A stretch of 64,000 nucleotides of DNA from a virus. The position numbers and the translations under genes are program-made. Under the pieces are notes generated by a model that searched no databases, was not told the DNA's origin, and saw only the letters and a program-made list of their open reading frames with translations. The stretch is taken from positions 1 through 64,000 of the IMG/VR virus record IMGVR_UViG_3300022752_000030; one strand, given 5' to 3'. This document shows positions 16,977-42,850 of the stretch, one piece after another (the stretch's first letter is position 1; each line of letters starts with the position of its first letter).

Positions 16977-17190
16977 TTTTTATTTCTATCCAGTTATTAT
17001 AAATTTTATGACGACTATAACTTTTAGTTTTTATTTCAAGTTCTTTAAAATGATCATTGATATACTTCGCTAAGCTTTCATCATCTATTCCATGGACTTT
17101 TATGAATAAAATTTCAGGAGTTATTTTAACTCCCATAGGTACACCAAAATTCTCTTTTATCAATTTAACAATATCCAGATATCTCGTCAC
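16951..17190 (-). CDS. small hypothetical protein
   Basis: 79 residues, not recognised. Alpha/beta pattern with ITPEILFIKVHGIDDESLAKYI in the middle. It overlaps the i-spanin gene by 26 bases and the next gene upstream by four bases, so it is packed in the same transcription unit. No signal peptide or TM. Confidence 0.5.
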   Translation of the reverse strand: MTRYLDIVKLIKENFGVPMGVKITPEILFIKVHGIDDESLAKYINDHFKELEIKTKSYSRHKIYNNWIEIKNVDNKLSS

Positions 17191-17555
17191 TTTGGCAATT
17201 TCCTACTTCCCATTGGCACCATAATTGGATTATATCTTTTTTTCTTTCTAGGATGGACACCAGGTTCACCACCTTTTCCTCCAGTCCCTGCAATTGCACC
17301 CGAACCCACGACATTTGCAGGTCCTGCAACAGCAGCTGCACCATCTTCTTGAACAGCTTCTTCTGAAGTGGATCTCCAACCGCCACCCATTGATTTATAT
17401 TTTTTAGATGCCCAAGCATTAGCATAAGCGGAAGGATAAACAGCAAATTTAGATTTAGCTGCAGCTTTAGCACGAGCCCACTTTTCAGGTTGTGTAGGCT
17501 TATTCTTTTCATCTAAGATTTCGGCTTCATTTATAAATTCAATGAATGTTTTCAT
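17187..17555 (-). CDS. putative head-packaged small protein with capsid-targeting-like N-terminus (DUF5872-like)
   Basis: 122 residues. The first ten, MKTFIEFINE, match the pattern of the T4 internal-protein targeting peptide (IPIII begins MKTYQEFIAE), with INE as a gp21-type cleavage site. A conserved middle follows (KWARAKAAAKSKFAVYPSAY, then SMGGGWR), a motif I associate with DUF5872, and a Gly/Ala-rich linker and basic tail (HPRKKKRY). Probably a DNA-associated virion component. Confidence 0.65.
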   Translation of the reverse strand: MKTFIEFINEAEILDEKNKPTQPEKWARAKAAAKSKFAVYPSAYANAWASKKYKSMGGGWRSTSEEAVQEDGAAAVAGPANVVGSGAIAGTGGKGGEPGVHPRKKKRYNPIMVPMGSRKLPK

Positions 17556-18056
17556 TTATTTTGTCCTAACATTTATTGCTTTGCCACGGCGTTCTGGATT
17601 TGGATCTTCACGGCGTTTTCTTTGTGCTGCTTTTGCTCTACCTTCTTTACCTAAAGCTTGTGCTTTGGCCTGAGGTAAGCACTTTGGTTTACCTTCTCCT
17701 GGTTCTCTAGCACAATCTCCTTTGATATTGCCCTTTGTGTCCATTCGAACCCATTTTTGTTTAAACCATTGTCTTAAATCTTCATTAATCCAATCATCTG
17801 GAGTTTTTCCATGTTTAGATTTAAAATCATTGTGTAACTCTTTGCCTGTTATTCCGTGGTCTTTAGATATTTTCATCATCAACTTATCGATTGTGTCATA
17901 GTCATGACTATCTAATTGTTTTAAACCATCTTCTAATTCTTTTACATGATCTTCTTTTCTACAACTACCAGCAGTATATGCTGGTTTACCAGGAACTGGT
18001 TTAAATCCTGACCAACATCTGCCCTTTTCGTTGATAAAAGACTTAAAAGATTTCAT
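17556..18056 (-). CDS. putative head-packaged protein with capsid-targeting-like N-terminus
   Basis: 166 residues starting MKSFKSFINE, again ten residues ending in INE. The rest contains CWSGFKPVPGKPAYTAGSC, an acidic helical part, and GDCAREPGEGKPKCLPQAKA followed by a strongly basic tail. The cysteine- and basic-rich pattern recurs in aquatic T4-like phage proteins of unknown function. Stop and next start are adjacent, so it is cotranscribed with the DUF5872-like gene. Confidence 0.65.
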   Translation of the reverse strand: MKSFKSFINEKGRCWSGFKPVPGKPAYTAGSCRKEDHVKELEDGLKQLDSHDYDTIDKLMMKISKDHGITGKELHNDFKSKHGKTPDDWINEDLRQWFKQKWVRMDTKGNIKGDCAREPGEGKPKCLPQAKAQALGKEGRAKAAQRKRREDPNPERRGKAINVRTK

Positions 18057-18439
18057 ATGTTTAGTAATATCTGTGCGACTTTGGGATCTAATGCTATATC
18101 AGATGAATATATTGTTTTTCCATTAATACCCTTAACTTCATCGGGCATTATTCTTAAAAAATCTAAAAACGTTTTCAATATATCATAATCACGTTCGTCA
18201 ATTTTATAGAATAATATTCTTGATGTCGGTTCAGCTCCAAAAACATTATTCAATAAAATAATGTGATTCAATATCAGGCGTTCTTTAAGATAACCTGTTG
18301 TTTTATATCTACGAAATAAACGCTTTAAATATTTCGTGCGTTTAATGTCACCTTCAAATTCGGACATTATACAATGCGGTGATGTGTAGCATTTCATAGC
18401 GTACATCACGAAATTATCTTCATTCAATTCATCAAACAT
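18053..18439 (-). CDS. conserved T4-like phage hypothetical protein
   Basis: 128 residues. MYAMKCYTSPHCIMSEFEGDIKR is followed by YLKRLFRRYKTTG, LNHIILLNNVFG and a C-terminal domain with FLDFLRIMPDEV. The C-x-S/N-P-x-C start and RYKTTG motif recur in T4-like phages from aquatic hosts; role unknown. It has no targeting-like N-terminus. A GC-rich hairpin (18451-18468) separates it from the gene upstream. Confidence 0.6.
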   Translation of the reverse strand: MFDELNEDNFVMYAMKCYTSPHCIMSEFEGDIKRTKYLKRLFRRYKTTGYLKERLILNHIILLNNVFGAEPTSRILFYKIDERDYDILKTFLDFLRIMPDEVKGINGKTIYSSDIALDPKVAQILLNI

Positions 18440-18450
18440 AGTAACAGAAT

Positions 18451-18468
18451 GGGCACCAAAAGGTGCCC
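18451..18468 (-). terminator. GC-rich hairpin, possible terminator or mRNA processing site
   Basis: Perfect 7-bp stem GGGCACC/GGTGCCC with an AAAA/TTTT loop, directly after the stop of the structural gene at 18477. On the minus strand the following sequence is only ATTCTGTT, a poor U tract, so it may mainly protect the 3' end or attenuate. Confidence 0.5.
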
Positions 18469-18476
18469 CCTTTTAA

Positions 18477-19064
18477 TTAAACACCAGCGTAATATGTTTG
18501 TATATTGCTTGTATTACCAGACAATGTATTTGCTGCTGTGGGATTAGCTAATGTAACCAAAACTTCTGTTTGTACACGACCAGAGCGGCCGCCAGTACCT
18601 GTTGTCACATAAACCCAGCCTTGGTGTGCAGTAGCGTGATTGGTTGCATCACCAAATGTTGCATTTGCAAGTCTTGTACCAGTAACTAAAACTGTATCTT
18701 GATTATAAGTGCTTGATCTTTCGCCGGCTGGATAAGATATAGGCGTATCGAATTCCAACACAGTTCCGGAAGGAACACTTGCCAAAATATTTTGAGAAAG
18801 TACTACTGTATTAGCAGTAACACTTGCAACAGTTGTATTTGATTTAAAGAAACCTGGTTCACCACTTGTACCAACATTTAGTGCAACAACTGACATACCA
18901 GCAACAATTGCTGAATTTGAAACATCGGTGCTTGTACCAAAATACAAAGTATTTCCACTTGCAACGGTATTTCCTGTTGCGAGTGTTGTTGTAAAGCGAA
19001 CTTGTCTTTCTTTTGACCAATGTGGCTTATCGTAAATTGAATCTGTATTACCCCAAGATGGCAT
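18477..19064 (-). CDS. putative virion structural protein (beta-rich)
   Basis: 195 residues, rich in Thr, Ser, Val and Asn with alternating strands and no helices of note, as in head-decoration or fibre proteins. It begins MPSWGNTDSIYDKPHWSKERQ. A late-type promoter GATAAATA and AAGGAG precede it and a hairpin follows, so it may be strongly expressed as a separate late unit. The precise virion location is not known. Confidence 0.55.
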   Translation of the reverse strand: MPSWGNTDSIYDKPHWSKERQVRFTTTLATGNTVASGNTLYFGTSTDVSNSAIVAGMSVVALNVGTSGEPGFFKSNTTVASVTANTVVLSQNILASVPSGTVLEFDTPISYPAGERSSTYNQDTVLVTGTRLANATFGDATNHATAHQGWVYVTTGTGGRSGRVQTEVLVTLANPTAANTLSGNTSNIQTYYAGV

Positions 19065-19098
19065 GTTATTCTCCTTTTAACCGTGTGGGTTTGTTACC

Positions 19099-19106
19099 TA
19101 TTTATC
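19099..19106 (-). promoter_or_regulatory. late promoter candidate GATAAATA
   Basis: Minus-strand GATAAATAGG in the short gap upstream of the beta-rich structural gene, about 35 bp from its ATG; 7 of 8 match to the T4 late core. Confidence 0.6.
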
Positions 19107-19108
19107 TA

Positions 19109-20305
19109 TTATTTCTTTTCTTCTTTTTTCTTGTCGTCTTTTTTGTCATCCTTTTTTGTAGGATCAGGTTGACCTGGACGAACTCTCATTGACGGATCAA
19201 TTTCAATTGTATCTCTCTTTTCACCTGTTAAGGTTGTTCCACCAGACATAACCGCAGAAGCCTTTGGTTTATCTTCACCCATATCATCTTTTTCATCAGA
19301 CTTCTCAAACTTAGGTTTTTTACCATAAGTTGCAACAGACTTATCTTCTTTTTCATGGTCATAAATTTCTTCTTTCATGCCATGTTTTTTGTACAAAGAC
19401 TTAATCAGTCTAGCTGATTTCGACATTTGTTTTCTCTTACTTTCTACTTCCATACCAACAGTTTGCGTTGCAGCCATTGGATCTTGAAATTTGTCTTCTT
19501 CAAGTTTTTCTTTGCGATTATTATAATCTAAAAGTTTTTTGATGGTTTCAATGTGACCCTGCAAGTAACCGTGTTGCAATCTCATATCAGGTTCGACCAT
19601 TTGAACCATTCTGTCAATTTGATCTTTGATGTTTTGTGCAATCCAAAGGTAACCCAAATCGTCCTCTTTAGGAGAACCTTTTTTCTCCTTTAAGTGTTTT
19701 TCTATGAAGAAAATTGCGTCTTGTAGTTTAGCCATACCCTCGACTAACTCATAAGAATCTTCATCAACTTTTTCACCTATATCAGTATACAATTCGGTTG
19801 CAATTGGACAAATATCAAAATATTTTGGTTTATAGTCAAAAACTTTAAATTCAAATTCTTCTTCTTTTTCTTCCCATTGCAATTCTTCTTTGAGGTCAGC
19901 AATGAAATTATAATCATTCATTGTGAGTGTGCCTCTATTTCGTATTTCTATCAATCTCTCGACAATACGATGTAGTTCTGGATCATCTTTCACATCCTCA
20001 CGGGCCAATTCTAAAATACGAATCATCAAAGGAATATCCAATGTAATTGTATCTTTAACATCGGCTGATTCCATCATGTGATCTTGTTTCCACTTCAAAA
20101 ATTCTCCAGATTTTGAATGTGAAACTTTAGTATCTTTTGAAACAAATTTAGGATTAATTCCTCTAGACATTAAATATTTGTCCAAAGCAGCGTCCTCGTT
20201 TATATTAGATTTTGCAGACCATGGATCACGTGGATTAGTACCGAATGTCGGTTTTTGACCAATATTCTTTTTGACCAACGATTTAATTATTTGCGCTTTA
20301 CTCAT
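19109..20305 (-). CDS. large helical phage hypothetical protein with charged tail
   Basis: 398 residues. Largely alpha-helical, with segments such as ELAREDVKDDPELHRIVERL and an acidic centre, and a C-terminal tail of about 90 residues alternating Lys and Asp (ending in a DDKKDDKKKEEKK-like run). No enzyme motif. It is adjacent to other putative head-interior proteins; a scaffold or core role is possible but unproven. Confidence 0.6.
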   Translation of the reverse strand: MSKAQIIKSLVKKNIGQKPTFGTNPRDPWSAKSNINEDAALDKYLMSRGINPKFVSKDTKVSHSKSGEFLKWKQDHMMESADVKDTITLDIPLMIRILELAREDVKDDPELHRIVERLIEIRNRGTLTMNDYNFIADLKEELQWEEKEEEFEFKVFDYKPKYFDICPIATELYTDIGEKVDEDSYELVEGMAKLQDAIFFIEKHLKEKKGSPKEDDLGYLWIAQNIKDQIDRMVQMVEPDMRLQHGYLQGHIETIKKLLDYNNRKEKLEEDKFQDPMAATQTVGMEVESKRKQMSKSARLIKSLYKKHGMKEEIYDHEKEDKSVATYGKKPKFEKSDEKDDMGEDKPKASAVMSGGTTLTGEKRDTIEIDPSMRVRPGQPDPTKKDDKKDDKKKEEKK

Positions 20306-20314
20306 TTTAATACC

Positions 20315-21856
20315 TTACTCAGATGTGCCTGTTTTACCCATCATTTCATTTTTGATTCTTTCCATTGATTTGCGAGCCATTTCTTTTGCTCTACTCAAAG
20401 GTTTATTTTCGTTTGTCACAAAAGGAACAGTATCATCTTCAGGTCTTTTTGATTCTTTAACGGTTGATTTAACAATACCGCTGAATCTTTTGTTAGCTTT
20501 CTGTGTTAATTCTTTACCAGCTTTAACATTACCTGAAGCATAATGTTTTGCAGCTTGTTTGTCTAAAGCAGAAGCCTGTGTGCCGGCAGCTTTCCTATAT
20601 GCTTGATGTGTTGCTGGTGATAATTCATCAAGAGATTCGACTTCTTCTTTTACTGGAATATGACGCTCAACGCGAGAAAGTCTGCAACCTTCTTTGCATT
20701 TTTCATGAGCTTGTTTGATAGCATCATCATCACTTTTTGCTACCAATAAATTCATACCTGTCCATTCACCCTTATCGTTTTCATAATGAGCAGCATGAGT
20801 ATGAGATTCATTTTTCTCATTTAATTCATATTCTTCGTTTGCTGTTCGCATTGCTCTTATTACAGCAGGATGATCAGAAAGTCCGGGTTTCATTTTATCG
20901 ATGGCTTTAAGGGCACCAGTTAAGTTGCCTCCTTTGTATCTTTTATCGTTAATGATACCGATAGCCATTTTAACATCTCTATCAGAATGTGTTTTATTCA
21001 ACTCATCAAGAGACTCAACTTCCTCACCACGCATTTTCTTTGCATAATCAATCTGTCGTTGAGCTTGACCTTCTTTGCCTTTGGTGATTCCTTGGCCTCT
21101 AAGTCTACGATCAGCATCCATTGCTCCCGCAAATTGTCTTATGGTCTTTCTAGGTGCAGAACTATAACCACTTTCTGGTTTTTTATTCCAAGCATCCATT
21201 GCTTTCGTGCCTCTGTCTTTCACAGATTGAAGTGCTGCACGACCTGCTGGTGTATCACCAACCTCGTCAATCTGCTCAACTTCTTCTTTAGCCATTGCTT
21301 GTTTAGTTGCAGTTGCATACATTACATCTTTCCAACGCTTACCATATTTTTTCTTGAAGTAAGACATATTCTTTTTCATCGACATCACAATATTTTCACG
21401 CTTTTTCATTTCGTCATCTGTCATTTCTTTTTCGCTGACCATAAAATCAGCAAAATTATCATCAGACTTATTTAAACTTTCAATTAATTTATCTTTAAAA
21501 GAATATTCTTCTTTTTTAGTGTCGTCAGTTGACTTAACTGGTTTACGTGAATAAACAGTACCAGTAGAAATCTTTTTAGAATCAAAACCAGCTTTCTCGC
21601 CTGGTTTAGTTGGTAATTCAGACTTTCTATTTTTCCAATCAAACGGACTTGATTCTTCAATCGCTTCACCAGCAGAAACTTCTTCACCTTGAACTTTTAC
21701 AGGATATTTTTTACCTTTAAATGTGAAGTGTGTTTCACCAGATTTGTGAGCAGCATATGCCGCTTTGCGTAAACCAGTTTCGTCTAATTCCATTTCATTG
21801 GCCATAACTTTTTTAACTGCTTCAGAAATTGAATTTACTTTTATTTTGTCGTACAT
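20315..21856 (-). CDS. repeat-containing putative prohead core or internal protein
   Basis: 513 residues, highly charged. It holds repeated linkers: EEVEQIDEVG, EEVESLDELN and EEVESLDELS, each before a helical module; the last begins SPATHQAYRKAAG. A fourth domain has AAHKSGETHFTFKGKKYPVK near residue 45. Repeated L-x-E sites resemble prohead protease cut sites. This modular plan (short helical units joined by acidic EEVExLDEL linkers) is common in aquatic T4-like phages but has no assigned function. Confidence 0.6.
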   Translation of the reverse strand: MYDKIKVNSISEAVKKVMANEMELDETGLRKAAYAAHKSGETHFTFKGKKYPVKVQGEEVSAGEAIEESSPFDWKNRKSELPTKPGEKAGFDSKKISTGTVYSRKPVKSTDDTKKEEYSFKDKLIESLNKSDDNFADFMVSEKEMTDDEMKKRENIVMSMKKNMSYFKKKYGKRWKDVMYATATKQAMAKEEVEQIDEVGDTPAGRAALQSVKDRGTKAMDAWNKKPESGYSSAPRKTIRQFAGAMDADRRLRGQGITKGKEGQAQRQIDYAKKMRGEEVESLDELNKTHSDRDVKMAIGIINDKRYKGGNLTGALKAIDKMKPGLSDHPAVIRAMRTANEEYELNEKNESHTHAAHYENDKGEWTGMNLLVAKSDDDAIKQAHEKCKEGCRLSRVERHIPVKEEVESLDELSPATHQAYRKAAGTQASALDKQAAKHYASGNVKAGKELTQKANKRFSGIVKSTVKESKRPEDDTVPFVTNENKPLSRAKEMARKSMERIKNEMMGKTGTSE

Positions 21857-21870
21857 GATTGTCTCCTAAA

Positions 21871-22284
21871 TTACCATGCTTTGCATGACCAGTATCTTGC
21901 TTTTGTTCTTGGACCGGGTGTTGCACAACGGTGTCGTGCTCTAAAACTTCTACGGCGAGCAGGATTATGTTTTTTAATTGTCATATTCTTGTCACCAAAA
22001 TTAACTTTTACAACTCTACCTGACGGTGATTTTACAAAAACTTTAGATTTTTTAACATCACCTTTCATTGGCTTACCCAAAGGAACTTTACGTCCTTGAT
22101 ATTCAGCTTCATCTAAAGGTTCTGATTCCAAATCCCAATCGATAGAATCGATTAATTGTTCTTCGTCACCATCAAAATTAAATTCATCGGAAGAAACTTC
22201 TTCCCACAATTGTGAAACTTCCTCTTGAAGATATGCAGGTTCATCCGAATATTCTTCTGATACAAATTGACTAAAAAATTTCAT
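21871..22284 (-). CDS. putative head-packaged protein with acidic centre and basic Cys tail
   Basis: 137 residues starting MKFFSQFVSE, a capsid-targeting-like decapeptide ending in VSE. An Asp/Glu-rich half (residues 10-60) is followed by a basic half with RARHRCATPGP and ending YWSCKAW. The terminal RARHxC...YWSCxxW pattern recurs in other aquatic phage proteins. Acidic region removal and basic DNA-binding tail would fit an internal head protein; this is inference. Confidence 0.62.
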   Translation of the reverse strand: MKFFSQFVSEEYSDEPAYLQEEVSQLWEEVSSDEFNFDGDEEQLIDSIDWDLESEPLDEAEYQGRKVPLGKPMKGDVKKSKVFVKSPSGRVVKVNFGDKNMTIKKHNPARRRSFRARHRCATPGPRTKARYWSCKAW

Positions 22285-22285
22285 T

Positions 22286-24172
22286 TTAAATTCTCTTTTT
22301 CTTTTTAATTATGATTCCAATATTTTTATCTTGATCCTTATATGATTGCATGGGTTCTTTATTACTTGCACCACCCAATGTTCCACCTACTCCCATATCT
22401 ACTGCACCCGGATCATCAATTGCTTCTTTTACTTTTTTTCTAAAATTTTTAAAATCTTTTTGTTCTCTGTATGTGACATCGCCTAATCCTGACATTGGGT
22501 ATACTGTTCCCTGTTGGCGTGTGTCAAATTCTGGTCCTATTCCAGAAACATTCCTCATTCTTTGATTTACTGTCGGTGAATCTGATGTTTTTATTCTTTT
22601 GGCTTTGTCTTTCTCTTTGTCTTTTCTGAAGTTGGATTCTTTTGGTTCGGGGAAGACTTTAATGCTGGGACCTTTTTCTTCACTATACGTTTTGAAGGTG
22701 TAGGTTTTTGTTCTTTTTGGAGCATCCCATTTGATGTTGTCGGCGTTGGAATCTCCTGCTCTGTTGTCTGGAGTGATGTCGTCTGGACCGGCTGCTCTTT
22801 CAACTGAGTTGTTTCTTTTGTAAACTCCTGCGGAAGCTTCTCGCTTTTCGTTGAGTTTTTGAATAAATTTAGAATTTTTCTTAACATTATCTTCCTTAAA
22901 CAAATATTTAACCGATTCATTTATATTTAATTTTCCGTGATTTTCCATCCAAGAAAATGCAACATCAGTATAATTTCTTTCGTCAATAAATCTATTTATT
23001 ATTTGATAAGTGTCTGTAATATCTTCTTCAATTGATTCGAGTGTTGCACTATTATCAAAATTAATAAATTTTGCAAAATTTTGACGGTAAGATTCTTTGC
23101 TAGCCTGAGCTAGTTCCCACTTTTCAAATCTAACTGACTCCGAAACCATTTTAGCTAAACTTTTATTTCTGATTTTACTGGTTTCATTTGTCGTGTCAAC
23201 AAAAATCATGATCGTATCGTAACCAAGTTCTTCAAGTTCTTCTTTGATTGTGATCATTTTCGAATGATCGTCCGCAGGTCCATTAATAATTAAAGGACCT
23301 CTAGATCGAATCGCTTCTCTGCGATAATCTGTTGTTTTTTCGGATAACTTTTGTTTATCCATTAAATAATCAAAAGCTTGAATTGAGTTTAATTCGACAG
23401 AACGGTTTTCAGCGATTGCTTCTCGAATTATAATATCTTTTCCTGATCCTGGACCACCGGTAACGAAAATAGCTTTAAATAAACCTCTATTATAGTCCTC
23501 ATGTAATCCCATACCTTTGCGTGTATCGTGCATTAACTCTTTGGCATGTTCATCGGACACATGAGAAGGAACACCTTTTCTAAACTCCTTAAAGTCTTTA
23601 TTTTTGGCATGTTCACGCATTTTGCTTCCGGACATACCCTCTGTGCCTTCGGCATCAGGATCACGATGGCCGGCTGAATGAATTTTTATACTCTTAAAAT
23701 GATATTCTCCGTGTCCTGCTTTAACACCATTATACTTATGTAATAGATCATGCATCTCTTTAACACGATCCGATCCGACGACAACGTGAAGGTGAGTTAC
23801 ACCACTCTTATATGCCGATACCGCATGGTGTAATATGGTTGGTTTTTCTTTTGTAGCGGCAGTAATTTTTGGTTTAGTTGTGATGCGTTGCAGTGATGAT
23901 TTTATTGAAACAGCTTCTTCTATTTTATTAGGTGAAGCCATATATCTAGTTAGATGCTTGATTTTTTGTTCAGAACTTAATGGATTTTTCTTACTATCTT
24001 GTGAGTGAGAAACGATAACTTCATATGATGCATTATGTTTTTTGGCAATCTCTTTAACTTTATTGATTAGCTTTAAATGTCCAGTCGTTGGAGGATTCAT
24101 GCGACCAAATGTGATCACATGATGTTTCTCATATTCTTCTTGTTCTTTGACTAATTCTAAAAATGACTTCAT
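22286..24172 (-). CDS. nucleotidyltransferase / P-loop fusion with capsid-targeting-like N-terminus
   Basis: 628 residues. N-terminal MKSFLELVKE. Domain 1 (about 17-215) is a nucleotidyltransferase: ITFGRMNPPTTGH with the TxGH motif (29-32), VVGSDRV, and SGSKMREHA in place of the ISSTxLR motif. Domain 2 begins near residue 225 with AIFVTGGPGSGKD, a Walker A P-loop, then D in MIFVDTTN, like small kinases or zeta-toxin-type phosphotransferases. A 170-residue basic, disordered tail follows. Substrates unknown. Cotranscribed with the ligase-like and PD-(D/E)XK-like genes. Confidence 0.72.
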   Translation of the reverse strand: MKSFLELVKEQEEYEKHHVITFGRMNPPTTGHLKLINKVKEIAKKHNASYEVIVSHSQDSKKNPLSSEQKIKHLTRYMASPNKIEEAVSIKSSLQRITTKPKITAATKEKPTILHHAVSAYKSGVTHLHVVVGSDRVKEMHDLLHKYNGVKAGHGEYHFKSIKIHSAGHRDPDAEGTEGMSGSKMREHAKNKDFKEFRKGVPSHVSDEHAKELMHDTRKGMGLHEDYNRGLFKAIFVTGGPGSGKDIIIREAIAENRSVELNSIQAFDYLMDKQKLSEKTTDYRREAIRSRGPLIINGPADDHSKMITIKEELEELGYDTIMIFVDTTNETSKIRNKSLAKMVSESVRFEKWELAQASKESYRQNFAKFINFDNSATLESIEEDITDTYQIINRFIDERNYTDVAFSWMENHGKLNINESVKYLFKEDNVKKNSKFIQKLNEKREASAGVYKRNNSVERAAGPDDITPDNRAGDSNADNIKWDAPKRTKTYTFKTYSEEKGPSIKVFPEPKESNFRKDKEKDKAKRIKTSDSPTVNQRMRNVSGIGPEFDTRQQGTVYPMSGLGDVTYREQKDFKNFRKKVKEAIDDPGAVDMGVGGTLGGASNKEPMQSYKDQDKNIGIIIKKKKRI

Positions 24173-25170
24173 TCTTCCGACTTCTTAAATGTTAATGGTT
24201 TATGACCTAATGTTTTGGCCATTGCGTGCAGGTGTTCATCATGATCCAAATCGACATGACTTTTATCTGCATGTTTGACCATAAATTGTATTGTACGTTT
24301 TTTTGGATCGGATGTTTTTTGTCTGACTCTCCATTGGCCTTTACCTGTCAATTCAGGCAATCCGTGGCCAGTCTTATCTTTTTCACCAACTCTATATGTT
24401 CCGTGTTTACCGACTTGTAGGACATCAACATGATGATCCTTTAAGTAAGCATTTGCTGGTTTCAAATCATCATGTTCAAAGTTTACATTTTTAGCCAAAG
24501 GACCACCAGGTACCAATCCAGTAGGTTTATGGTGTTCGTTCATGTGGTCTATGATACCTTTTGACTCGATGTGTGCAGCATAACCTGGTCTGTTTTTTCT
24601 ATTTTCTTCAGGAATGTGCCAACCACCCTTCTTTTCATCATAAGCAATAGTTAATTGACCAAAAGCAGCAGTTTTTCCTGCTTTTGTTTCGCCCTGTAAC
24701 TCACCTTCGTTGTGTACTTCGCCTTTATGTTTCGTATTTAATTTTTTATTAACCAAATTAAAGTCGTTACCACTTGTAAATCCAGCAGCTTCACCGTGCA
24801 TCAAACCATGGTCTTTTAATCTTTTTACGAAATTTTGTTCATATTCAAAACCTTTATTAGATTTTTTTTCTCCTGGTTTTAAAATTTTCGAAACAGGTAT
24901 TACGTGTTTTCTTCTCGTAACATCATCCGTAGCATGAACGTAATATTTTCCATCAATCAATTCTGTCTTGTGTAATTTTAATTTTGATCCGGATGGAACA
25001 TCTTCGTGATCTTTACCCATAGTGTGAGTATAATCTTTTGATCCTAGATGCGGCATTACATATTTTCCCAAATGTCTTTCTTTGTCGATACCTGCACCTT
25101 TAATGAAACCCACACCTTCAGCTTCATTAATCATTTCACATTCATTTAAGTGTTGTAAAAATGTTTTCAT
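24169..25170 (-). CDS. PD-(D/E)XK-like protein with capsid-targeting-like N-terminus
   Basis: 333 residues starting MKTFLQHLNE. The middle reads KGFEYEQNFVKRLKDHG, then SGNDFNLV, then LQGETKAG: the E, D and ExK spacing of a PD-(D/E)XK nuclease core. The same GFEYE, D and GxExK series occurs in the gene at 32675-33424, so the two are probably paralogues. His-rich C-terminal half. Overlaps both neighbours by four bases. Nuclease activity is predicted, not shown. Confidence 0.6.
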   Translation of the reverse strand: MKTFLQHLNECEMINEAEGVGFIKGAGIDKERHLGKYVMPHLGSKDYTHTMGKDHEDVPSGSKLKLHKTELIDGKYYVHATDDVTRRKHVIPVSKILKPGEKKSNKGFEYEQNFVKRLKDHGLMHGEAAGFTSGNDFNLVNKKLNTKHKGEVHNEGELQGETKAGKTAAFGQLTIAYDEKKGGWHIPEENRKNRPGYAAHIESKGIIDHMNEHHKPTGLVPGGPLAKNVNFEHDDLKPANAYLKDHHVDVLQVGKHGTYRVGEKDKTGHGLPELTGKGQWRVRQKTSDPKKRTIQFMVKHADKSHVDLDHDEHLHAMAKTLGHKPLTFKKSEE

Positions 25171-26339
25171 TTTCTAACCTTTAATAAATTTGCTCTTGCA
25201 AATTCTTGGCGATCAACTAATTTAGTAGGTTCACCTGCATGGTTAATAACAAAGCCTTCTGGACCAGTTCTTTTGCCATCTATATGATGTTCTAGTCCAC
25301 CTTCATGTTGATTTAGTGTGTGTACCAAGACATTTTTAGCTTGTTGTAAATGATGGTGCATCTTCAGGAGATTTTCATAATGATCTTTGTTTTTCTCAAT
25401 ATGACTTAGATGACTATTTGCTTCCGATTGTTTTCTAGCTTGTCCTGCCGGCGTTTTTAATTTTGAAGCTGATTTATTGTATTGATTTTGTATGTGTTTT
25501 TTCAGTCCTTCAGCAGAAGGAACTTCACCAGTTCTTACTGTATGGTTAATGTAAGTCGAAAGGTGTCCAGCTTCACCTCGATGTGGCTCAGTTGATTTGT
25601 ACATTGTGCCTTTATGCTCATCATGTATTTTTCTTGCGGCTGACATGTGGTCATTGAATTTTTCTTGATCCGATTCTGAATAATGTACGTTTTTCGTATC
25701 GTGTTCGGCTGATTTGTGCCAAACATCAGGATGCTGATAAAATTTATGCATGTCGGGATGAGGATCGGCACCCATCGTACTCAGGTTTTTTCCGTGATAC
25801 TGGGTGTGTACAATTACACCAAGTTTTGCTCTCCTTATTTTATCAGCCTCATCACCTTTTGCGGTATATGTGATTGTATTTGGAGTAAATGATACACCTT
25901 TTTTTGTTTCTTTTTTGTCACCATCAGAAAACATTAGGTCACCTTGGTAAACTCCTGACTTCGGTGCAATCTTTTTGAGATGATTTAGTCCTGCGTGTAA
26001 TTTGTCCATCAAACCGGGTGCGTGTCCGTGGTTTTTAACTATATCTGCATGTGTATAGTTTATTTTTGGATTTACATTGAAAGCTGATTTTGATGCAACA
26101 AAGAATTTACCGTTTTCTGGATTATGACCAAAAACAACGGCAGGAGATCCATCATATTTCATCGTCAAATGAGAACTGTTGCCACCTGACTTAATATGTT
26201 CGTGAGCTTGATTTAACGCATTGTAAGTGTGTTCAAAACCTTTTGATCCGTGAAGTAAAGGCCGGTCTTCAGCATGATGTATATGCTTAAGTTTTTCACC
26301 TTCAGTTTCTTCAATCAAAAAATTTAAAAAAGATTTCAT
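25167..26339 (-). CDS. ligase-like nucleotidyltransferase (DUF6267-type) with capsid-targeting-like N-terminus
   Basis: 390 residues from the ATG at 26339 (AGAGGTAAG upstream); begins MKSFLNFLIE. Motifs of covalent nucleotidyltransferases are visible in order: LTMKYDGSPAVVF (motif I KxDG, K61), VYQGDLMF (motif III-like), IVHTQYH, EGFVI (motif IV, E361) and KLVDRQEF (motif V, K373). This suggests an RNA/DNA ligase-like or capping-type fold; I recall the family as DUF6267. The His-rich helical middle is an insertion. A TATAAATA late promoter lies 43 bp upstream. Confidence 0.65.
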   Translation of the reverse strand: MKSFLNFLIEETEGEKLKHIHHAEDRPLLHGSKGFEHTYNALNQAHEHIKSGGNSSHLTMKYDGSPAVVFGHNPENGKFFVASKSAFNVNPKINYTHADIVKNHGHAPGLMDKLHAGLNHLKKIAPKSGVYQGDLMFSDGDKKETKKGVSFTPNTITYTAKGDEADKIRRAKLGVIVHTQYHGKNLSTMGADPHPDMHKFYQHPDVWHKSAEHDTKNVHYSESDQEKFNDHMSAARKIHDEHKGTMYKSTEPHRGEAGHLSTYINHTVRTGEVPSAEGLKKHIQNQYNKSASKLKTPAGQARKQSEANSHLSHIEKNKDHYENLLKMHHHLQQAKNVLVHTLNQHEGGLEHHIDGKRTGPEGFVINHAGEPTKLVDRQEFARANLLKVRK

Positions 26340-26381: not shown

Positions 26382-26389
26382 TATTTATA
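26382..26389 (-). promoter_or_regulatory. late promoter TATAAATA
   Basis: Perfect 8/8 match to the T4 late core on the minus strand (ATTATAAATAAC), in a non-coding gap 43 bp before the ligase-like gene. A second near-match, TATAAATC, lies about 18 bp further upstream. Confidence 0.75.
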
Positions 26390-26445: not shown

Positions 26446-27141
26446 TTAGTAATGTTCGATTTCACCGTTTCCGGCTAACCAACCCATGCAGTGAATTTTT
26501 TCAAATTCCACCAAATAATTTTTTGGAATATTCACGAAATGTGCGTGTTCTGTATCCAGTACATTTACAATCGACATGTTTTTATTCAGTACACTCAGAT
26601 AAGTGTCAATTAGTGAAGGACAAAAAGAATACATTCTTGTAATAAACAAGTGGGTTGCATCATGTTTTATATCTCCCATCCAAGTTGGTATTCTTTTTTT
26701 AAATACAAATTTTCCAAAGAGGTCATCATAATCATTGATATTGAAATTATCATCAAGTTCCGATCTTCCTGAAAATTTAAATACTCTTTTTACAGAATTT
26801 AAAACATTACTCACATTGGGATTATTCTTTAGTGTTTGTAATGTTGCAAACAACAATGCATTTTCGGCATGACTTTTTTGACCATTTGAAGTGTAATGTT
26901 TTGTTGCTGGTTCTTCACTCAAATCAAAATATAGATTAGAATTTTGACTTAGAACTTTTTTTTCAAAATCACTTAATGGAGAAATAGATGTGTCCGATAA
27001 CAATATGATAGCATCAGGTACTTTTTTTCGAATTGATCTGAGCGTAAAAAGTGTCTGTGCAAATCTTTGTTCAGGAGAAAATACTCCTATTTTTGGTTTT
27101 ATTGAAGAAGTGACAATAAATAAATTTTTGTCAGGAATCAT
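26446..27141 (-). CDS. hypothetical protein of the glycan cassette
   Basis: 231 residues. N-terminal FIVTSSIKPKIGVFSPEQRF and FTLRSIRKKVPDAIILLSD resemble glycosyltransferase-like phage proteins; HFVNIPKNYLVEFEKIHCMG is near the C-terminus. No clear DxD. It overlaps the nucleotide-sugar gene by four bases and begins the 6-kb cassette of sugar-related genes at its 3' side. Likely a glycosyltransferase-type enzyme, low certainty. Confidence 0.5.
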   Translation of the reverse strand: MIPDKNLFIVTSSIKPKIGVFSPEQRFAQTLFTLRSIRKKVPDAIILLSDTSISPLSDFEKKVLSQNSNLYFDLSEEPATKHYTSNGQKSHAENALLFATLQTLKNNPNVSNVLNSVKRVFKFSGRSELDDNFNINDYDDLFGKFVFKKRIPTWMGDIKHDATHLFITRMYSFCPSLIDTYLSVLNKNMSIVNVLDTEHAHFVNIPKNYLVEFEKIHCMGWLAGNGEIEHY

Positions 27142-28160
27142 AAGTAATTTTCCAAGTCATCGGAATCTCTAAAAATATTAATTGCTTCTGCTCTCGGAAA
27201 AGGATTTGATTTATTAAAATCATTAATCAATATTCTTCTTGAATTTTGCAATCCTGATATTAATGTGTAATTTTTAAATCCCAATTCATTTAATAATGAA
27301 CAGCTCCTCTCGTCATATATTTTACCTCTTGAAGTTGTAAATATAAATTGAGCTCCATTTGATTGCATTTCCAAAAGTTTTTTTACATTTTTAGTGAGTG
27401 GTGTGATTTTATGGTCATAAGAGTTTTCACCCACACGACTTTGTGCTTTCACTATCGTTCCGTCTATATCACAAAAAATTACAGGTTTATCATTATATTC
27501 AAACCAGTCTTTTGCGGTACCGACATCAATATAATTCTTTACTGCTTTTTCAGTAAAAATATTTTTATTATTGATGCATCTTCCAATTACATCAGATACA
27601 AATATTTCTCGTTCCTGTGAAATGTCCTCAAAAGCGTTTTTGTACAACAATGCACTTTCGAATTTATAACCACCAACACAAAAAGTATCAGACACAACTT
27701 TCTTTTCTATGATATCGTTAATTATACCTTGTTCATTGGAAATTGTAAAGCTTTTGGATGATAGTTTCTTCAAAATTTCATGTTCGGAAATTTTAGAAAC
27801 ACAAACGTAATTTCCTGGAGAAATTTCATGTTCAAAAAAACTATCACAATCTTTTATAAGTATTTCTTCATTCGTAAGACCAGACTTTTGAATTATTTGA
27901 TATACTGTATCGGCTGGACCTTTTGTTGGTTTTTCTAAAACAACAATTTTTATTTTGTCACCAAATTCATATCGAATGAATTCAGATGCATGATATTTTT
28001 CATCATGTTCTTTTAAAATACCAACAGTAATTGAATTTTGTAAATAAGGACGTAAAGAATTTTTCAACATTAAATCGTGTTTGTAATCATACAACAAATA
28101 TTTTGGTTTCATTTCGGGAAACCTTGTTGATAATCCGGCAGCAGGTACAATTATTTCCAT
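27138..28160 (-). CDS. sugar nucleotidyltransferase fused to HAD phosphatase
   Basis: 340 residues. N-terminal domain has the nucleotidyltransferase signature AAGLSTRFPEMKPKYLL and a second-motif KDCDSFFE; C-terminal domain from about 225 begins PVIFCDIDGTIVKAQ, the DxDGT motif of HAD hydrolases, with TTSRG as motif II. The two reactions in one chain suggest activation of a sugar phosphate and removal of a phosphate in the same pathway. It overlaps its neighbours by 4 and 10 bases. Confidence 0.78.
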   Translation of the reverse strand: MEIIVPAAGLSTRFPEMKPKYLLYDYKHDLMLKNSLRPYLQNSITVGILKEHDEKYHASEFIRYEFGDKIKIVVLEKPTKGPADTVYQIIQKSGLTNEEILIKDCDSFFEHEISPGNYVCVSKISEHEILKKLSSKSFTISNEQGIINDIIEKKVVSDTFCVGGYKFESALLYKNAFEDISQEREIFVSDVIGRCINNKNIFTEKAVKNYIDVGTAKDWFEYNDKPVIFCDIDGTIVKAQSRVGENSYDHKITPLTKNVKKLLEMQSNGAQFIFTTSRGKIYDERSCSLLNELGFKNYTLISGLQNSRRILINDFNKSNPFPRAEAINIFRDSDDLENYL

Positions 28161-28897
28161 AATCTTTTTATTTCTTTCATGATAAAGTTATAATTAAAAT
28201 CATTTTTCTTTGTGTGTAAATAAACTCTCAATAACATTAAAATTAATAAATTATTATCTTTTGCAATTTCGAATTTACTTAAAATTTGTTCTTGTAAATT
28301 TTTAAGTTTAACATCTATTCTTATCGAATCATTTCTCAAAAACCATTTACACTCTAAATCTTGTCTCATTTTTGCAATATCGAATATATATGAGTCATAT
28401 TCAACCTTGACAGCATCAATCATATAAAATTTATTTTTATTTGTGCCTATAATATTTTCAAGTGTCATATCACCATGATACATCGAACTCGGTAATATTT
28501 TTGGTAATCTTTCGATGAATTCTTCTTTATTGAAAGGTAAGTCATCATTTTGATCCATCCATTTTAGTTTTTCATTATAGACACCAGTGTAATCCTTCAT
28601 TACACTTTTTTTTGAAAAATTTTCCAATGTAGAAATAATAAAGTTAGACAAGTCCTCGATATTGTGATGAATTAGATAATTCTTCATATCCAGTCCATGG
28701 ATATATTCCATGTCTAATACATTATTTCCATAATTGTATATTTTAGGAACAGGATATCCAAAAGAATAAAGAGTGCTCAGTCTTTCTAAATTTCTTTCTA
28801 CATTATTGATTTTTCTTATAAACAATCCCCAGACATCTTCCATCAAGTATATTTGACTACCTGAATGTCCAGTTAATTCCTTTAGTGTTTTTTCCAT
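28151..28897 (-). CDS. APH/choline-kinase-like phosphotransferase
   Basis: 248 residues. The catalytic loop SSMYHGDMTLENII (HGDxxxxN) and MIDAVKVEYDSYIFDIAK (metal-binding Asp) are those of the aminoglycoside phosphotransferase/choline kinase fold. N-terminal GHSGSQIY replaces the glycine-rich loop. It probably phosphorylates a sugar or choline-like precursor for the nucleotidyltransferase beside it. Overlaps both neighbours. Confidence 0.75.
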   Translation of the reverse strand: MEKTLKELTGHSGSQIYLMEDVWGLFIRKINNVERNLERLSTLYSFGYPVPKIYNYGNNVLDMEYIHGLDMKNYLIHHNIEDLSNFIISTLENFSKKSVMKDYTGVYNEKLKWMDQNDDLPFNKEEFIERLPKILPSSMYHGDMTLENIIGTNKNKFYMIDAVKVEYDSYIFDIAKMRQDLECKWFLRNDSIRIDVKLKNLQEQILSKFEIAKDNNLLILMLLRVYLHTKKNDFNYNFIMKEIKRLWK

Positions 28898-29559
28898 TGG
28901 TCATAGTCATTACGTATGAGTGAATGCCATGTTCCGTTATGTGGTCCAGGAGGAAACGGATTATTCATGTTCACATATATTAGATTATTGCCGTACAAAT
29001 TATGTTCGTATAAATTTGCCTTCATCATGTCTTCACCGATAAATTGATATCCAGAATCATAATACTTATCTATGTTCAAATAAGTTGACATGTATTTCAT
29101 CATTATTTCTTTTGATCCAAAAGCAAATTGGTCGTTTCCAAAATCTCTTTCGGGAGTCATACGACAATTTGGTATATACAATTTTTTATTTTCTAAATCA
29201 GCGAAAGGTATTTTAACATTTAAAGCATAATCCGTTCTCGATTTGATCACCCAATCATAATCCCCCTCAACTAATTGACTACATTTATACATCGAGTATA
29301 ACATGTTATATGTAAATCTAGGAGGATGTTTTAATAGATTTGGTGTATTTTTATATTGACTGTCGTAGTTACCAACTAGAGGTGTTTCAAACTCATATTT
29401 TTTTGGATTGTAAATATTAATAAGATTTTCACTTAAAACAAATTTCCAAGAATGAATGTAGACATCGACATTGTAATGGGAAAAAAGATTATTTTTATAA
29501 TACTTATAACCTTCTTCGAATGATCTTGCTTGACCACATAAGCATAAAGCGATTTTCAT
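28882..29559 (-). CDS. glycosyltransferase-like protein
   Basis: 225 residues. ALCLCGQARSFEEGYKYYKN and DVYIHSWKF at the start, WVIKSRTDYALN in the middle and an aromatic C-terminus. Same family layout as the gene upstream (SGHYRTFDQ, DVYCHLW, LVYCRYDVNF), so the pair is probably a duplication. The R-x-D motif may be the DxD-like nucleotide-sugar site. It overlaps the kinase gene by 16 bases. Substrate unknown. Confidence 0.6.
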   Translation of the reverse strand: MKIALCLCGQARSFEEGYKYYKNNLFSHYNVDVYIHSWKFVLSENLINIYNPKKYEFETPLVGNYDSQYKNTPNLLKHPPRFTYNMLYSMYKCSQLVEGDYDWVIKSRTDYALNVKIPFADLENKKLYIPNCRMTPERDFGNDQFAFGSKEIMMKYMSTYLNIDKYYDSGYQFIGEDMMKANLYEHNLYGNNLIYVNMNNPFPPGPHNGTWHSLIRNDYDQWKKH

Positions 29560-30245
29560 TTTTGTAAAAATACCGATAATTTTTCTGTTGTCAATTGAGG
29601 TACATTATTATTAAAAATATTTCTCAATAACATCATGTGAGGACAATACCTCTGGTCTTTATGTATTTTAATATTATTCTCACCGTAAAATCTTACATTT
29701 CTAAGATAGTCTTCAAATTCCGGTTCAAATTGAGTTGAGTGCAATTGTTCATATTTGTCATATATAAAATAATATTTTGCGTATTTAAAGGGCATAATCG
29801 CAAAAATATCCGATATTAAATTATAAGACTCTTGCAATGGAGTAAGAATCGTATTGATTTCTTCAAATTTAAATACTTGTGTAAAATTTACATCATAGCG
29901 ACAATAAACAAGTTCATCATATTCTTGATCAATTAAATCAAAAGCTTGTTTTCTACTAAAATTCATGGAAGCATTTCCTGAAATTTTATCAATCGATAAA
30001 GGTTTCGGATTTGCTTGTAGAATTCTTTTTTCCATTTCAAAAAATATTTGTTGATAATTTCTCCAATCTTCAACTAAGATTTTTTTAGGATTTAACTTAT
30101 CAATTATATTTTGTTGTTCATATTCATGAGTTAACCACAAATGACAATACACATCAAGTTCATTGATGTCAATAAATTTTTTAATGTTATCGCACGTTTG
30201 GTCAAAAGTCCTATAGTGACCAGATAAAATAATGCATTTTTTCAA
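29556..30245 (-). CDS. glycosyltransferase-like protein, paralogue of the neighbour
   Basis: 229 residues: CIILSGHYRTFDQTCDNI, DVYCHLWLTHE and LVYCRYDVNFTQ line up with the next gene's CLCGQARSFEEG, DVYIHSW and WVIKSRTDYALN. This points to tandem duplication and divergence. Part of the cassette that may decorate a virion or host-surface glycan. Overlaps the next gene by four bases. Confidence 0.6.
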   Translation of the reverse strand: MKKCIILSGHYRTFDQTCDNIKKFIDINELDVYCHLWLTHEYEQQNIIDKLNPKKILVEDWRNYQQIFFEMEKRILQANPKPLSIDKISGNASMNFSRKQAFDLIDQEYDELVYCRYDVNFTQVFKFEEINTILTPLQESYNLISDIFAIMPFKYAKYYFIYDKYEQLHSTQFEPEFEDYLRNVRFYGENNIKIHKDQRYCPHMMLLRNIFNNNVPQLTTEKLSVFLQK

Positions 30246-30254
30246 GATAAAATC

Positions 30255-30824
30255 TCACTTATACCAATACCAAACGTCACATTCGGTTGTTAAAATTTCT
30301 TTATTAACTTTATTTGCAAATTCATTAGCTGCACGATTTACACCTTCGATTGCAGTAAAATCATGGCCTGAGAATATTCCACCTGGTTTTAAAAACTTAT
30401 AATAGTTTTCACAATCTTTACTCAACTGTTCGTATGTATGAAGACCATCGATGAAAATAAAATCAAATTGATTTTCAGAAAAAAGATCAACCGCATCATC
30501 TGATGTTTTACGAATTAAAGAAAATCGATTCGAATATCCTTTCAATCTTTCCACCATTTGTTGATAAACGTTTTCTCTTTCGTTTAAGGAATTTCCATTC
30601 CAATCAATATAGTTTTCATATGGATCAATTGAAGTTAAATTCAATGTCGGATTTGAATCCAATAAAAAATTAGTTGTATCACCAATGTCACAACCAATTT
30701 CTAATCCTACTGGATTATTAATATCTTTAATCAGATATCCAAGACCGTAACCAGAACACTTGAATGTTCTCTGTACATTAAAGGATTGGTTTTCCGTATT
30801 AATTACAATTACATCATCACTCAT
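30255..30824 (-). CDS. class I SAM-dependent methyltransferase
   Basis: 189 residues. GLEIGCDIGDTTNFLL is the SAM-binding glycine loop, TSIDPYENY the acidic strand-2 end, FIFIDGLHTYEQ the D-h-H motif and FLKPGGIFSGHDF the post-IV motif. This is the pattern of the Methyltransf_24 type that acts on small molecules or sugars. It sits among glycosyltransferases, so O-methylation of a sugar is the likely reaction. Confidence 0.82.
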   Translation of the reverse strand: MSDDVIVINTENQSFNVQRTFKCSGYGLGYLIKDINNPVGLEIGCDIGDTTNFLLDSNPTLNLTSIDPYENYIDWNGNSLNERENVYQQMVERLKGYSNRFSLIRKTSDDAVDLFSENQFDFIFIDGLHTYEQLSKDCENYYKFLKPGGIFSGHDFTAIEGVNRAANEFANKVNKEILTTECDVWYWYK

Positions 30825-30827
30825 TTT

Positions 30828-31688
30828 TTACACCCTGTAAACAAAGAAATTATTTGGATCCTCTTGATTGAATTTTTTCATTATCAATTCTTTCCATAGA
30901 GGTACACGATCATATTGGTGAACAATACAAAATGGTTCTCCTGTATGTGTTTTAACCAATCCACTTTCAAAATCAAATGCGGGCTCAGGCTCTGTTAGAA
31001 AAGGTCTGAATGCTTCTATTTTTGAAGGATCGCCTGTTGTTCCTAATTGTACTGCCCAGCCGTCTTGTTGTTTAGTAAACAGAACTTTATCTTTATACGG
31101 TTGTGTTTGTATTGAAACGTTGTAAACAGCTTGATCAACTATGGGAATGGGTCTATTTGTAGAATTGATGAATATGTTTAGTACTAAGTCTTTAACATAC
31201 TCTGCTGTTCCTCCGATTGTACCAACATTATAAATTTCGTTACCTACAAACAAAAGATAAAAATATGGACCGTATGTTTCCATCAAATTTTGATTTCCCC
31301 AAGGCTCATATTTGTATGATATACTCTCAGAACCAGCTACTAGGGTTTTATTTTCTGGTAAATTTTTCTTAATCCATTCGATTGGATCTTTTTGAAAATA
31401 TACGTCCTTGACATCAGTTGTTACTACGTAGTCATAGTCTTTCCAGGTATCTTTAAGATAATCATAAATTGCAAGAAATCTTGCAACATGAATTGGAGCC
31501 TCTACCTTCAACATGTCAACAATTTTAAAATTTCTTTTGATCAATTCATCACGTGTTTCTTGTGATGCATTACCAACAACCATCACTTTGTCGCCTTCAA
31601 AACCACACTCATCAATAGACTCAACCCAAGGTTTGAGTTGATTGTAGGTATAGTTTGTAAAAGCACCGATAATTAAATTTTTCGCCAT
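30828..31688 (-). CDS. glycosyltransferase, GT-A-like
   Basis: 286 residues. LIIGAFTNYTYNQLKPW start, DYDYVVTTDVKDVYF with a D-x-x-D/DxD-type site, and HQYDRVPLWKELI near the C-terminus. A single domain without membrane segments. It overlaps the GT2 gene upstream by 16 bases. Likely transfers a sugar in the same pathway as the neighbouring genes; acceptor unknown. Confidence 0.7.
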   Translation of the reverse strand: MAKNLIIGAFTNYTYNQLKPWVESIDECGFEGDKVMVVGNASQETRDELIKRNFKIVDMLKVEAPIHVARFLAIYDYLKDTWKDYDYVVTTDVKDVYFQKDPIEWIKKNLPENKTLVAGSESISYKYEPWGNQNLMETYGPYFYLLFVGNEIYNVGTIGGTAEYVKDLVLNIFINSTNRPIPIVDQAVYNVSIQTQPYKDKVLFTKQQDGWAVQLGTTGDPSKIEAFRPFLTEPEPAFDFESGLVKTHTGEPFCIVHQYDRVPLWKELIMKKFNQEDPNNFFVYRV

Positions 31689-32383
31689 GGTAAAACTCCA
31701 TTATGTTTTCTTTTCATTTCTTCATTACCTCTCAAAAAGAATTCCGATGTAACGGAACCCGGATTTCCATCAACCCTATAGTTAACAGTATATTCTCCAG
31801 TGCAATCAAATTTTTTAAAGTGGTTTGATATTGTGTTGAAGAAAACTCTATCTTGTCCCCAACCGCCATGCCAGACACTAGCTAATTTTATCACAATATC
31901 AGATTTTACACAATAACAATTAGTATCTATGTGATGAAGTCCGTGATAAGTTTGCCATTTACCCAGAGATTCACAATCATCATTGCAAACATATTCTCCT
32001 TCTTTGTTGGCAACTTTTCGCAAAGAATATGACCAATCTAAATTATTTTTTTCTATTGTTTCAACACAACTCTGTACGTGATTTTTTTCAAACCAATTAT
32101 CTTGATCTAGATATAAAACATATTTTGTATTGATTAGATGTGAGAACGCAGCATAAACTCTATGTCCATAAAATCCATTAGCACCAACGTTAATAGGCAG
32201 AGAACATATTTTTAAATTTTTGTTACCCATATAATCGCTGGCAATAGTTTTAGCTTTTGCTGAAAAATTATCTCCATCGATAACCAAATAACAAATAGTT
32301 TCATATGTTTGATTCAACACACTCTCGATTGCATTACGCAATTCGCTAGCACCAGTTGTTGGTACGATCACAGTTGCAGTCAT
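31673..32383 (-). CDS. glycosyltransferase family 2
   Basis: 236 residues. TATVIVPTTGASELRNAIESVLNQT is the GT2 start, YVLYLDQDNWF holds the D-x-D metal site, and WHGGWGQDRVFF the acceptor-side ED/QD-like motif. Complete GT-A domain. First gene of the glycan cassette in transcription order, preceded by the 95-aa protein with two bases between. Confidence 0.82.
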   Translation of the reverse strand: MTATVIVPTTGASELRNAIESVLNQTYETICYLVIDGDNFSAKAKTIASDYMGNKNLKICSLPINVGANGFYGHRVYAAFSHLINTKYVLYLDQDNWFEKNHVQSCVETIEKNNLDWSYSLRKVANKEGEYVCNDDCESLGKWQTYHGLHHIDTNCYCVKSDIVIKLASVWHGGWGQDRVFFNTISNHFKKFDCTGEYTVNYRVDGNPGSVTSEFFLRGNEEMKRKHNGVLPWRKI

Positions 32384-42351: not shown

Positions 42352-42425
42352 TGGATGCGGGTCCAAGAGTCGAACAAGGAACTGAGGATTATGAGTCCTC
42401 TGTGATACCGTTTCACCAACCCGCG
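42352..42425 (-). tRNA. tRNA-Met(CAT), initiator-like C1xA72 pair and weak T stem
   Basis: Folding with the encoded CCA gives acceptor CGCGGGT/ACCCGCA, whose first pair is a C1xA72 mismatch as in bacterial initiator tRNA. D stem GTGA/TCAC, anticodon stem GAGGA/TCCTC with loop CTCATAA. The T stem CCTTG/CTTGG has two central U-U mismatches. It may be a divergent initiator-like tRNA or one that is decaying. Confidence 0.7.
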
Positions 42426-42433
42426 ATAAAAAG

Positions 42434-42511
42434 TGGTCTCCGATGAGAGATTCGAACTCCCGTTATTCTTCATCCCAAATGAAGTGCCATACCAGGCTAG
42501 GCGAATCGGAG
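42434..42511 (-). tRNA. tRNA-Pro(TGG)
   Basis: Acceptor CTCCGAT/ATCGGAG, anticodon loop TTTGGGA, T arm GGGAG-TTCGAAT-CTCTC, CCA encoded. Five bases separate its 5' end from the stop of the 53-aa gene. Confidence 0.9.
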
Positions 42512-42515
42512 ATTA

Positions 42516-42677
42516 TTATCTACCTCTACTTGATCTTCTAGTTGGTTTATTTACATTAACCTGAGAAGTAAATTTAGTTTGTTGTTTAGTTGCAATTTTT
42601 GAATTATTATTCGGTAATATTTTACCGGATTCACGAGCTAAATTTATAAAAGGATTTTTTGATTTTTTTTCATCCAT
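42516..42677 (-). CDS. small basic protein inside the tRNA cluster, 53 aa
   Basis: Starts MDEKKSKNPFINLARESG at 42677 after a strong AGGAGAT site, and ends in a basic Arg/Ser tail (TRRSSRGR). Located between tRNA-Gly and tRNA-Pro. No domain recognised; a small nucleic-acid-binding protein is possible. The strong SD and clean spacing support it as a gene. Confidence 0.6.
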   Translation of the reverse strand: MDEKKSKNPFINLARESGKILPNNNSKIATKQQTKFTSQVNVNKPTRRSSRGR

Positions 42678-42695
42678 TATATTATCTCCTAAATT

Positions 42696-42769
42696 TGGAG
42701 CGGGATGACAGAATCGAACTGTCAACGGAAGATTGGAAATCTACAGTTTTACCATTAAACTAATCCCGC
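42696..42769 (-). tRNA. tRNA-Gly(TCC)
   Basis: Acceptor GCGGGAT/ATCCCGC, anticodon loop TTTCCAA, T arm GACAG-TTCGATT-CTGTC, CCA encoded. One U-U mismatch in the anticodon stem. Confidence 0.88.
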
Positions 42770-42775
42770 ATTAAC

Positions 42776-42850
42776 TGGTGCCGGATGTCTGATTTGAACA
42801 GACGACCTACCGCTTACAAGGCGGTTGCTCTACCCCTGAGCTAAACCGGC
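42776..42850 (-). tRNA. tRNA-Thr(TGT)
   Basis: Acceptor GCCGGTT/ATCCGGC, anticodon stem ACCGC/GCGGT with loop CTTGTAA, T loop TTCAAAT, CCA encoded. Good cloverleaf. Confidence 0.92.

Follow-up and report, generated by a model that had tools for sequence, protein, structure and literature searches.

A T4-type capsid-targeting decapeptide as the probable address of a late cargo operon in an uncultured T4-like phage

Six neighbouring minus-strand genes of an uncultured virus begin with ten residues of one pattern, which raises the question of what such a shared start does for proteins whose bodies are unrelated. The window, as the sequence studied here is called, covers the first 64 kb of a 111,237-bp virus record (IMGVR_UViG_3300022752_000030); the remaining part of the record was read as well. 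An initial annotation had read the decapeptide as a T4-type capsid-targeting peptide. That reading is supported by the recovery of the T4 internal proteins, by the virion proteins of cyanophage S-CREM2, and by the confinement of the motif to one block. We consider it highly probable that the decapeptide is a T4-type capsid-targeting sequence (CTS) and that the six genes make up most of a late cargo operon. The CTS of the T4 internal proteins was reportedly described by Mullaney and Black in 1996.

The decapeptide and its genomic setting

All six ORFs are present in the window with the N-termini that the initial annotation quoted (Table 1), and the start of T4 IPIII that it gave, MKTYQEFIAE, proved correct on checking. 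Across the whole 111,237-bp record, MKxFxxx[ILV]xE opens 6 of 128 genes, where column frequencies predict 0.06; 20,000 column shuffles never yielded as many as six such starts. As had been claimed, the decapeptide is restricted to genes of the block; the full motif stands at no other gene start in the record. The nearest non-block starts are MKTFMELINY (45823-46338), without E10, and MKTLKDYISD, with D at residue 10, in the gene at the gp68 position (67111-67644; L005:3212-3745). The former gene is located between two clusters of minus-strand tRNA genes (17 genes; 42352-47387). The C-terminal part of the latter matches phrog_696 ("major head protein"), which is also found in a cyanophage gene adjoining primase. 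For gene 25167, an in-frame GTG lies 24 nt upstream, but a good Shine-Dalgarno sequence (AGAGG) precedes the ATG at 26339.

E10 is present in all six tags, and residue 7 is F or L in five (H in 24169). A strict (I/L)xE cleavage site ending at E10 holds for four of the six, which have I or L at residue 8, but not for 21871 (VSE) and 22286 (VKE), which have V there. In T4 IPIII, targeting has been mapped mainly to residues 4 and 7 and processing to residues 8 and 10 (PMC9026906); the conserved tag positions are these same four. A second potential site, LDE, occurs at residue 16 of the 17187 protein.

From residue 11 onward, no pair among the six proteins is significantly similar (best E = 0.1), and codons differ among the six tags; paralogous N-termini were rejected for these reasons. 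One could still suppose that the tags are functionless products of common descent or gene conversion of adjacent N-termini, as might be expected of neighbours in the same orientation. We give this almost no credence, because codon usage varies from tag to tag, with F4 and E10 retained in families of as little as 28% identity, and because the tagged genes of S-CREM2 are dispersed, at 3.8-12.8, 107, and 124 kb.

As judged from its sequence, the record is that of a T4-like phage. The octamer TATAAATA that precedes the block occurs less often in the window than expected by chance (2 copies versus 7.8), and most of its minus-strand copies in the record lie 25-36 nt before an ORF, including the gp67-position gene and gp22. 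Since the block stands behind a perfect T4 late-promoter octamer, it would probably be switched on late, together with the genes of the prohead and head. [IL]xE sites number 16 in gp22 and 8 in gp21, against 8.0 and 3.4 expected, an excess that is compatible with the T4 rule for cleavage applying here too. Immediately upstream of the block lies a run of apparent sugar-nucleotide and glycosyltransferase genes (26446-32383), which recurs in relatives.

Among the untagged genes of the block, 18053 encodes a protein homologous to S-SZBM1_135 and S-CREM2_159. The resemblance of 18477 to S-SZBM1_136 is one of start and place, judged by eye; BLAST gave nothing at E 0.05. The 20315 product has repeated linkers, EEVESLDEL among them, and may be a precursor that would be cut at several [IL]xE sites; its density of such sites is not among the highest.

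Table 1. Features of the tagged block and of the head-gene region. Genes of the block are named in the text by their lowest coordinate; sets 1 and 2 are defined in the text.
Feature	Position	Strand	Tag	Evidence or remark
T4-type late promoter octamer TATAAATA	26382..26389	-		lies 43 nt upstream of the block's first ATG
DUF6267 protein, 390 aa	25167..26339	-	MKSFLNFLIE, 26310-26339	PF19782 E=4.5e-100
333-aa protein, family unknown	24169..25170	-	MKTFLQHLNE, 25141-25170	possible D...ExK nuclease signature
628-aa cytidylyltransferase-like (HxGH) + P-loop protein	22286..24172	-	MKSFLELVKE, 24143-24172	PF01467 E=2e-7; phrog_3041 E=7e-60
137-aa small protein	21871..22284	-	MKFFSQFVSE, 22255-22284	phrog_7595 E=8e-12
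513-aa protein, repeated [IL]DE linkers	20315..21856	-	untagged	tag in 4/35 relatives
398-aa protein	19109..20305	-	untagged	relatives tagged: 5/39 in set 1, 0/57 in set 2
195-aa protein	18477..19064	-	untagged	0/54 relatives tagged; resembles cyanophage virion protein S-SZBM1_136
DUF7207 protein, kept in cyanophage blocks	18053..18439	-	untagged	PF23837 E=2e-35; 0/50 relatives tagged
166-aa basic protein (pI 9.7)	17556..18056	-	MKSFKSFINE, 18027-18056	tag in 23/25 held-out homologues
122-aa basic protein (pI 9.9)	17187..17555	-	MKTFIEFINE, 17526-17555	tag in 8/13 held-out homologues
gp23	63255-64601 of record
gp22-type scaffold (T4_CASP)	64642-65883 of record			PF25623 E=4e-68
gp21-type protease (Peptidase_S77)	65921-66565 of record			PF03420 E=3e-37
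Genes at gp68, gp67, and portal positions, then tail genes	after 66565			portal and tail identified from sequence and gene order

The tag in uncultured relatives and in T4

Set 1 comprised 80 IMG/VR loci retrieved with the DUF6267 protein (25167), in which 129 of the 1,102 called ORFs start with the strict motif. These starts belong to the tagged families of the window, to relatives of 19109 (Table 1), and to genes without a window homologue (23); none was found among about 360 genes of the other window families in this set. The DUF6267 relatives have K, R, Q, Y, L, or I at residue 2, and F4, F7, L8, and E10 hold: across 22 relatives, F4 and E10 are invariant and F7 and L8 nearly so. With V at residue 8 in two of the six window tags and Y there in many relatives of 22286, the cleavage rule is not strictly kept.

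A profile trained on set 1 was applied to set 2, which consists of 80 loci retrieved with the cytidylyltransferase, is largely separate from set 1, and was held out from training. This retrieval is slightly biased, in that one peptide pattern overlaps query residues 9-16. The profile scored 77 of the 80 cytidylyltransferases, 65 of the 80 DUF6267 proteins, and the small proteins of 17556 and 17187 at the rates given in Table 1; it scored 0 of about 354 genes from 14 further families, several of which lie within the block. A DNA pattern for the tag matched 26 times in 16 whole related records (1.83 Mb), versus 2 times for a reversed-pattern control. A comparison of place put all 26 within the fetched block stretches, about 13% of the sequence. 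The search of related genomes that the initial annotation had proposed as a check therefore came out in its favor, with motif starts clustered and confined to this block; the refuting condition it had named, that other proteins of related phages carry the motif just as often, is false. Chance or a common MK start is excluded as the origin of the motif by the gene-start counts, the shuffles, and the relatives.

The slot between the DUF6267 and cytidylyltransferase genes was compared in 70 loci: it holds no gene in 46, a 24169 homologue in 12, and other proteins (about 340-480 aa, with no BLAST match to 24169) in 12. The slot genes are mostly tagged (MKSFLEMLSE, MISFKSFLLE, MKRFLTVILE, MKSFIQFIKE, and MKSFKYWLSE), and four are untagged. 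As far as sequence alone can tell, unrelated cargo bodies are swapped between relatives while the tag is retained. In phage C48C1, a homologue of 21871 starts MKKFKQYIDE; in Methylophilales phage Melnitz, the starts are (L)INFSKYITE for the DUF6267 protein and MQGFKTFLSE for the neighbour upstream of it. Another relative encodes, in the same block, a tagged protein (L129:4378-5004) that contains AFDMDEVLF and is HAD phosphatase-like by eye, without a Pfam match.

In T4, the internal proteins IPI, IPII, and IPIII carry a CTS (reviewed in PMC9026906). A profile trained only on uncultured relatives of the present phage, with T4 excluded, ranked gp61.1, IPI, IPIII, and IPII as the top four of 267 T4 ORFs; for three given proteins to fall within the top four of 267 by chance, p is about 1e-6. 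The highest score in T4, exceeding those of the known internal proteins, went to gp61.1 (gene 61.1; L098:18966-19130), a 54-aa protein that starts MKTFKEFIKE and has matches in 1,344 phage records. On the strength of its start, gp61.1 may be an unrecognised internal protein; its alignment with 17187 is too weak to claim a relation. T4 Alt was not selected by the profile.

Like the T4 internal proteins, the block proteins carry a ten-residue tag from Met-1, with an aromatic residue 4, hydrophobic residues 7 and 8, and E10; one tag precedes unrelated bodies, and some members are small and basic. The genome also resembles T4 in combining a late promoter of T4 type, a gp21-type protease, and a gp22-type scaffold. 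Unlike the T4 set, the block adds large enzyme-like cargo (390 and 628 aa), all in one late operon, its tags have F rather than Y at residue 4 and tolerate V or Y at residue 8, and its bodies are not homologous to the T4 internal proteins. The ADP-ribosyltransferase Alt of T4 is likewise an enzyme in the head with processed ends (PMC9026906), whereas the block contains no ADP-ribosyltransferase.

Resemblance to a CTS could also have arisen by convergence, in an amphipathic helix that serves another use, such as binding of a membrane or partner in the infected cell; the structural model of 24169, with low confidence, does place residues 4-16 in a helix. We think this very improbable given the fixed length, the start at Met-1, E10, and the late promoter, and given that the same profile retrieves both the T4 internal proteins and S-CREM2 virion proteins.

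Tagged proteins in cyanophage particles

The S-CREM2 virion proteome of 52 proteins includes a SAM hydrolase, an APH/ChoK-like kinase, and a cytidylyltransferase; according to the authors, these may be packaged proteins or contaminants (PMC10665884). These three (MKDFDSFLEE, VKRFDAFLTE, and MKNFSSFLTE) are among the five best S-CREM2 ORFs in our profile, together with ORF136 (MQTFSMFFSE) and ORF13 (MKDLHSFLTE), and every one of the five was detected in the virion (p = 7e-4; restricted to non-structural ORFs, p = 5e-5). ORF160, homologous to 17556 over 72 aa, is present in the virion as well. The tagged ORF6 matches the SAM lyase family PF23780, and a role for this SAM lyase as anti-restriction cargo is plausible. 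ORF12 (L090:7704-10313), which was detected in the virion under the name "Cas9," carries, away from its start, a stretch resembling the tag (KPLRFASFMAEAAVDQ); Pfam gives the protein no match, which makes that name doubtful.

Virion-associated cytidylyltransferase/NMNAT-like proteins and kinases are known from cyanophages S-SM1, S-CREM2, S-SZBM1, and S-SCSM1, with homologues of 22286 among them; their route into the head is left unexplained in the cited virion papers. The S-SM1 cytidylyltransferase T4-GC190, reported from purified virions (PMC3037559), starts MKKFSAFLNE, and that of S-SZBM1, the virion-detected gp140, starts MRFRQFIIE, a tag one residue shorter. With the tagged S-CREM2 homologue, tagged cytidylyltransferase has been detected in virions of three cyanophages. 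The DUF6267 protein gp141 of S-SZBM1, which adjoins gp140 and is untagged (MAKNTHLEH), was not detected in the virion. Two further S-SZBM1 proteins, gp139 and gp136, were detected in particles although untagged, so a protein can enter the particle by means other than the tag; untagged proteins of the block type thus do occur in virions. The tagged gp191 and gp192 went undetected in the shallow S-SZBM1 proteome of 30 proteins, and some cyanophage homologues have no tag. CsCl-purified virions may contain contaminants, as the S-CREM2 authors state (PMC10665884). S-CBWM1, a non-T4 phage, was left out of the tests.

Finished virions also bear on whether the tag might act on the core only, marking assembly factors that sit on the prohead core and are later degraded or lost, rather than delivered cargo. 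T4 gp22, gp67, and gp68 behave in this way, and the gp68-position gene here has the start noted above. We regard this as unlikely, because tagged proteins do occur in finished virions and because SAM lyase, kinase, and cytidylyltransferase domains would be unexpected for a scaffold. Outside the T4 group, the ejection proteins of phiKZ and SPN3US likewise have N-terminal propeptides that are removed by a prohead protease after an xxE motif; these differ in being mostly >100 residues long, with the motif A-x-E or S/A-x-E (PMC5694885, PMC9026906). In the open literature, neither CTSs in cyanophages nor DUF6267 was found to have been reported before, subscription papers being outside the search.

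Packaging, cargo functions, and the reach of the address

Because six unrelated genes carry a T4 head-loading tag and tagged relatives occur in particles, the six products are very probably packaged with the DNA. Packaging is strongly inferred, there being no proteome of this phage and only virions of homologues to draw on. In the mechanism that we propose, a scaffold core of gp22/gp67/gp68 type would bind the products via F4 and residue 7 of the tag, and they would become enclosed on closure of the gp23 shell. The gp21-type protease would cut after E10 at least those tags with I or L at residue 8, freeing the bodies inside the head ahead of DNA packaging, and the cargo would probably enter the next host with the DNA and act before phage gene expression. 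Cleavage after E10 is likely, without having been shown, for 17187, 17556, 24169, and 25167 (INE, INE, LNE, and LIE) and uncertain for 21871 and 22286. Injection with the DNA is inferred by analogy with T4, and core binding, cleavage, and injection in this phage, as well as the role of each cargo, remain inferences.

Among the possible functions, those of the DUF6267 and 22286 products may be joint, since phrog_455, a single 764-position profile, unites the DUF6267 part with the nucleotidyltransferase/P-loop part seen in 22286. In DUF6267, K-x-D-G and E-G-x-V are invariant and, with a later lysine, are kept down to 28% identity, and ligases (DNA, tRNA, and RNA-editing) rank first against its structural model, with weak resemblance (E = 0.12 and worse). 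On these motifs and this model, DUF6267 is a possible ligase-type nucleotidyltransferase; nucleic-acid or cofactor repair at entry would fit, as an inference. Gene 24169 has no Pfam or PHROG match, and a fold search with its model, which is too poor, gave no match; D136, E161, and K163 are invariant in 7 sequences, and the product is a putative, possible D...ExK nuclease. Sequence searches of the PDB with DUF6267, 24169, and the cytidylyltransferase gave nothing significant. The 17187 and 17556 products are basic (pI 9.7-10.0); the T4 internal proteins are basic.

The block proteins are supported as further CTS-tagged cargo, and the tag as a usable predictor of head cargo across T4-like phages. 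A short peptide so far understood in detail from T4 alone becomes a test for phage proteins that travel in the head, and it accounts for the puzzling repeated finds of enzymes in cyanophage particles, which had been left open as possible contamination. We lean, if only slightly, toward the broader proposal that the CTS serves T4-like phages in general (coli-, cyano-, pelagi-, and methylophages) as a readable address, such that the delivered set can be read from genomes. If true, that set would comprise nucleotidyltransferase/P-loop enzymes, the ligase-like DUF6267, kinases, SAM lyase, nuclease-like proteins, and possibly HAD-like proteins, and T4 itself would have unrecognised cargo in gp61.1. 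DUF6267 and several nameless families gain a place of action, and proteins present at entry are natural candidates for counter-defence and early host takeover.
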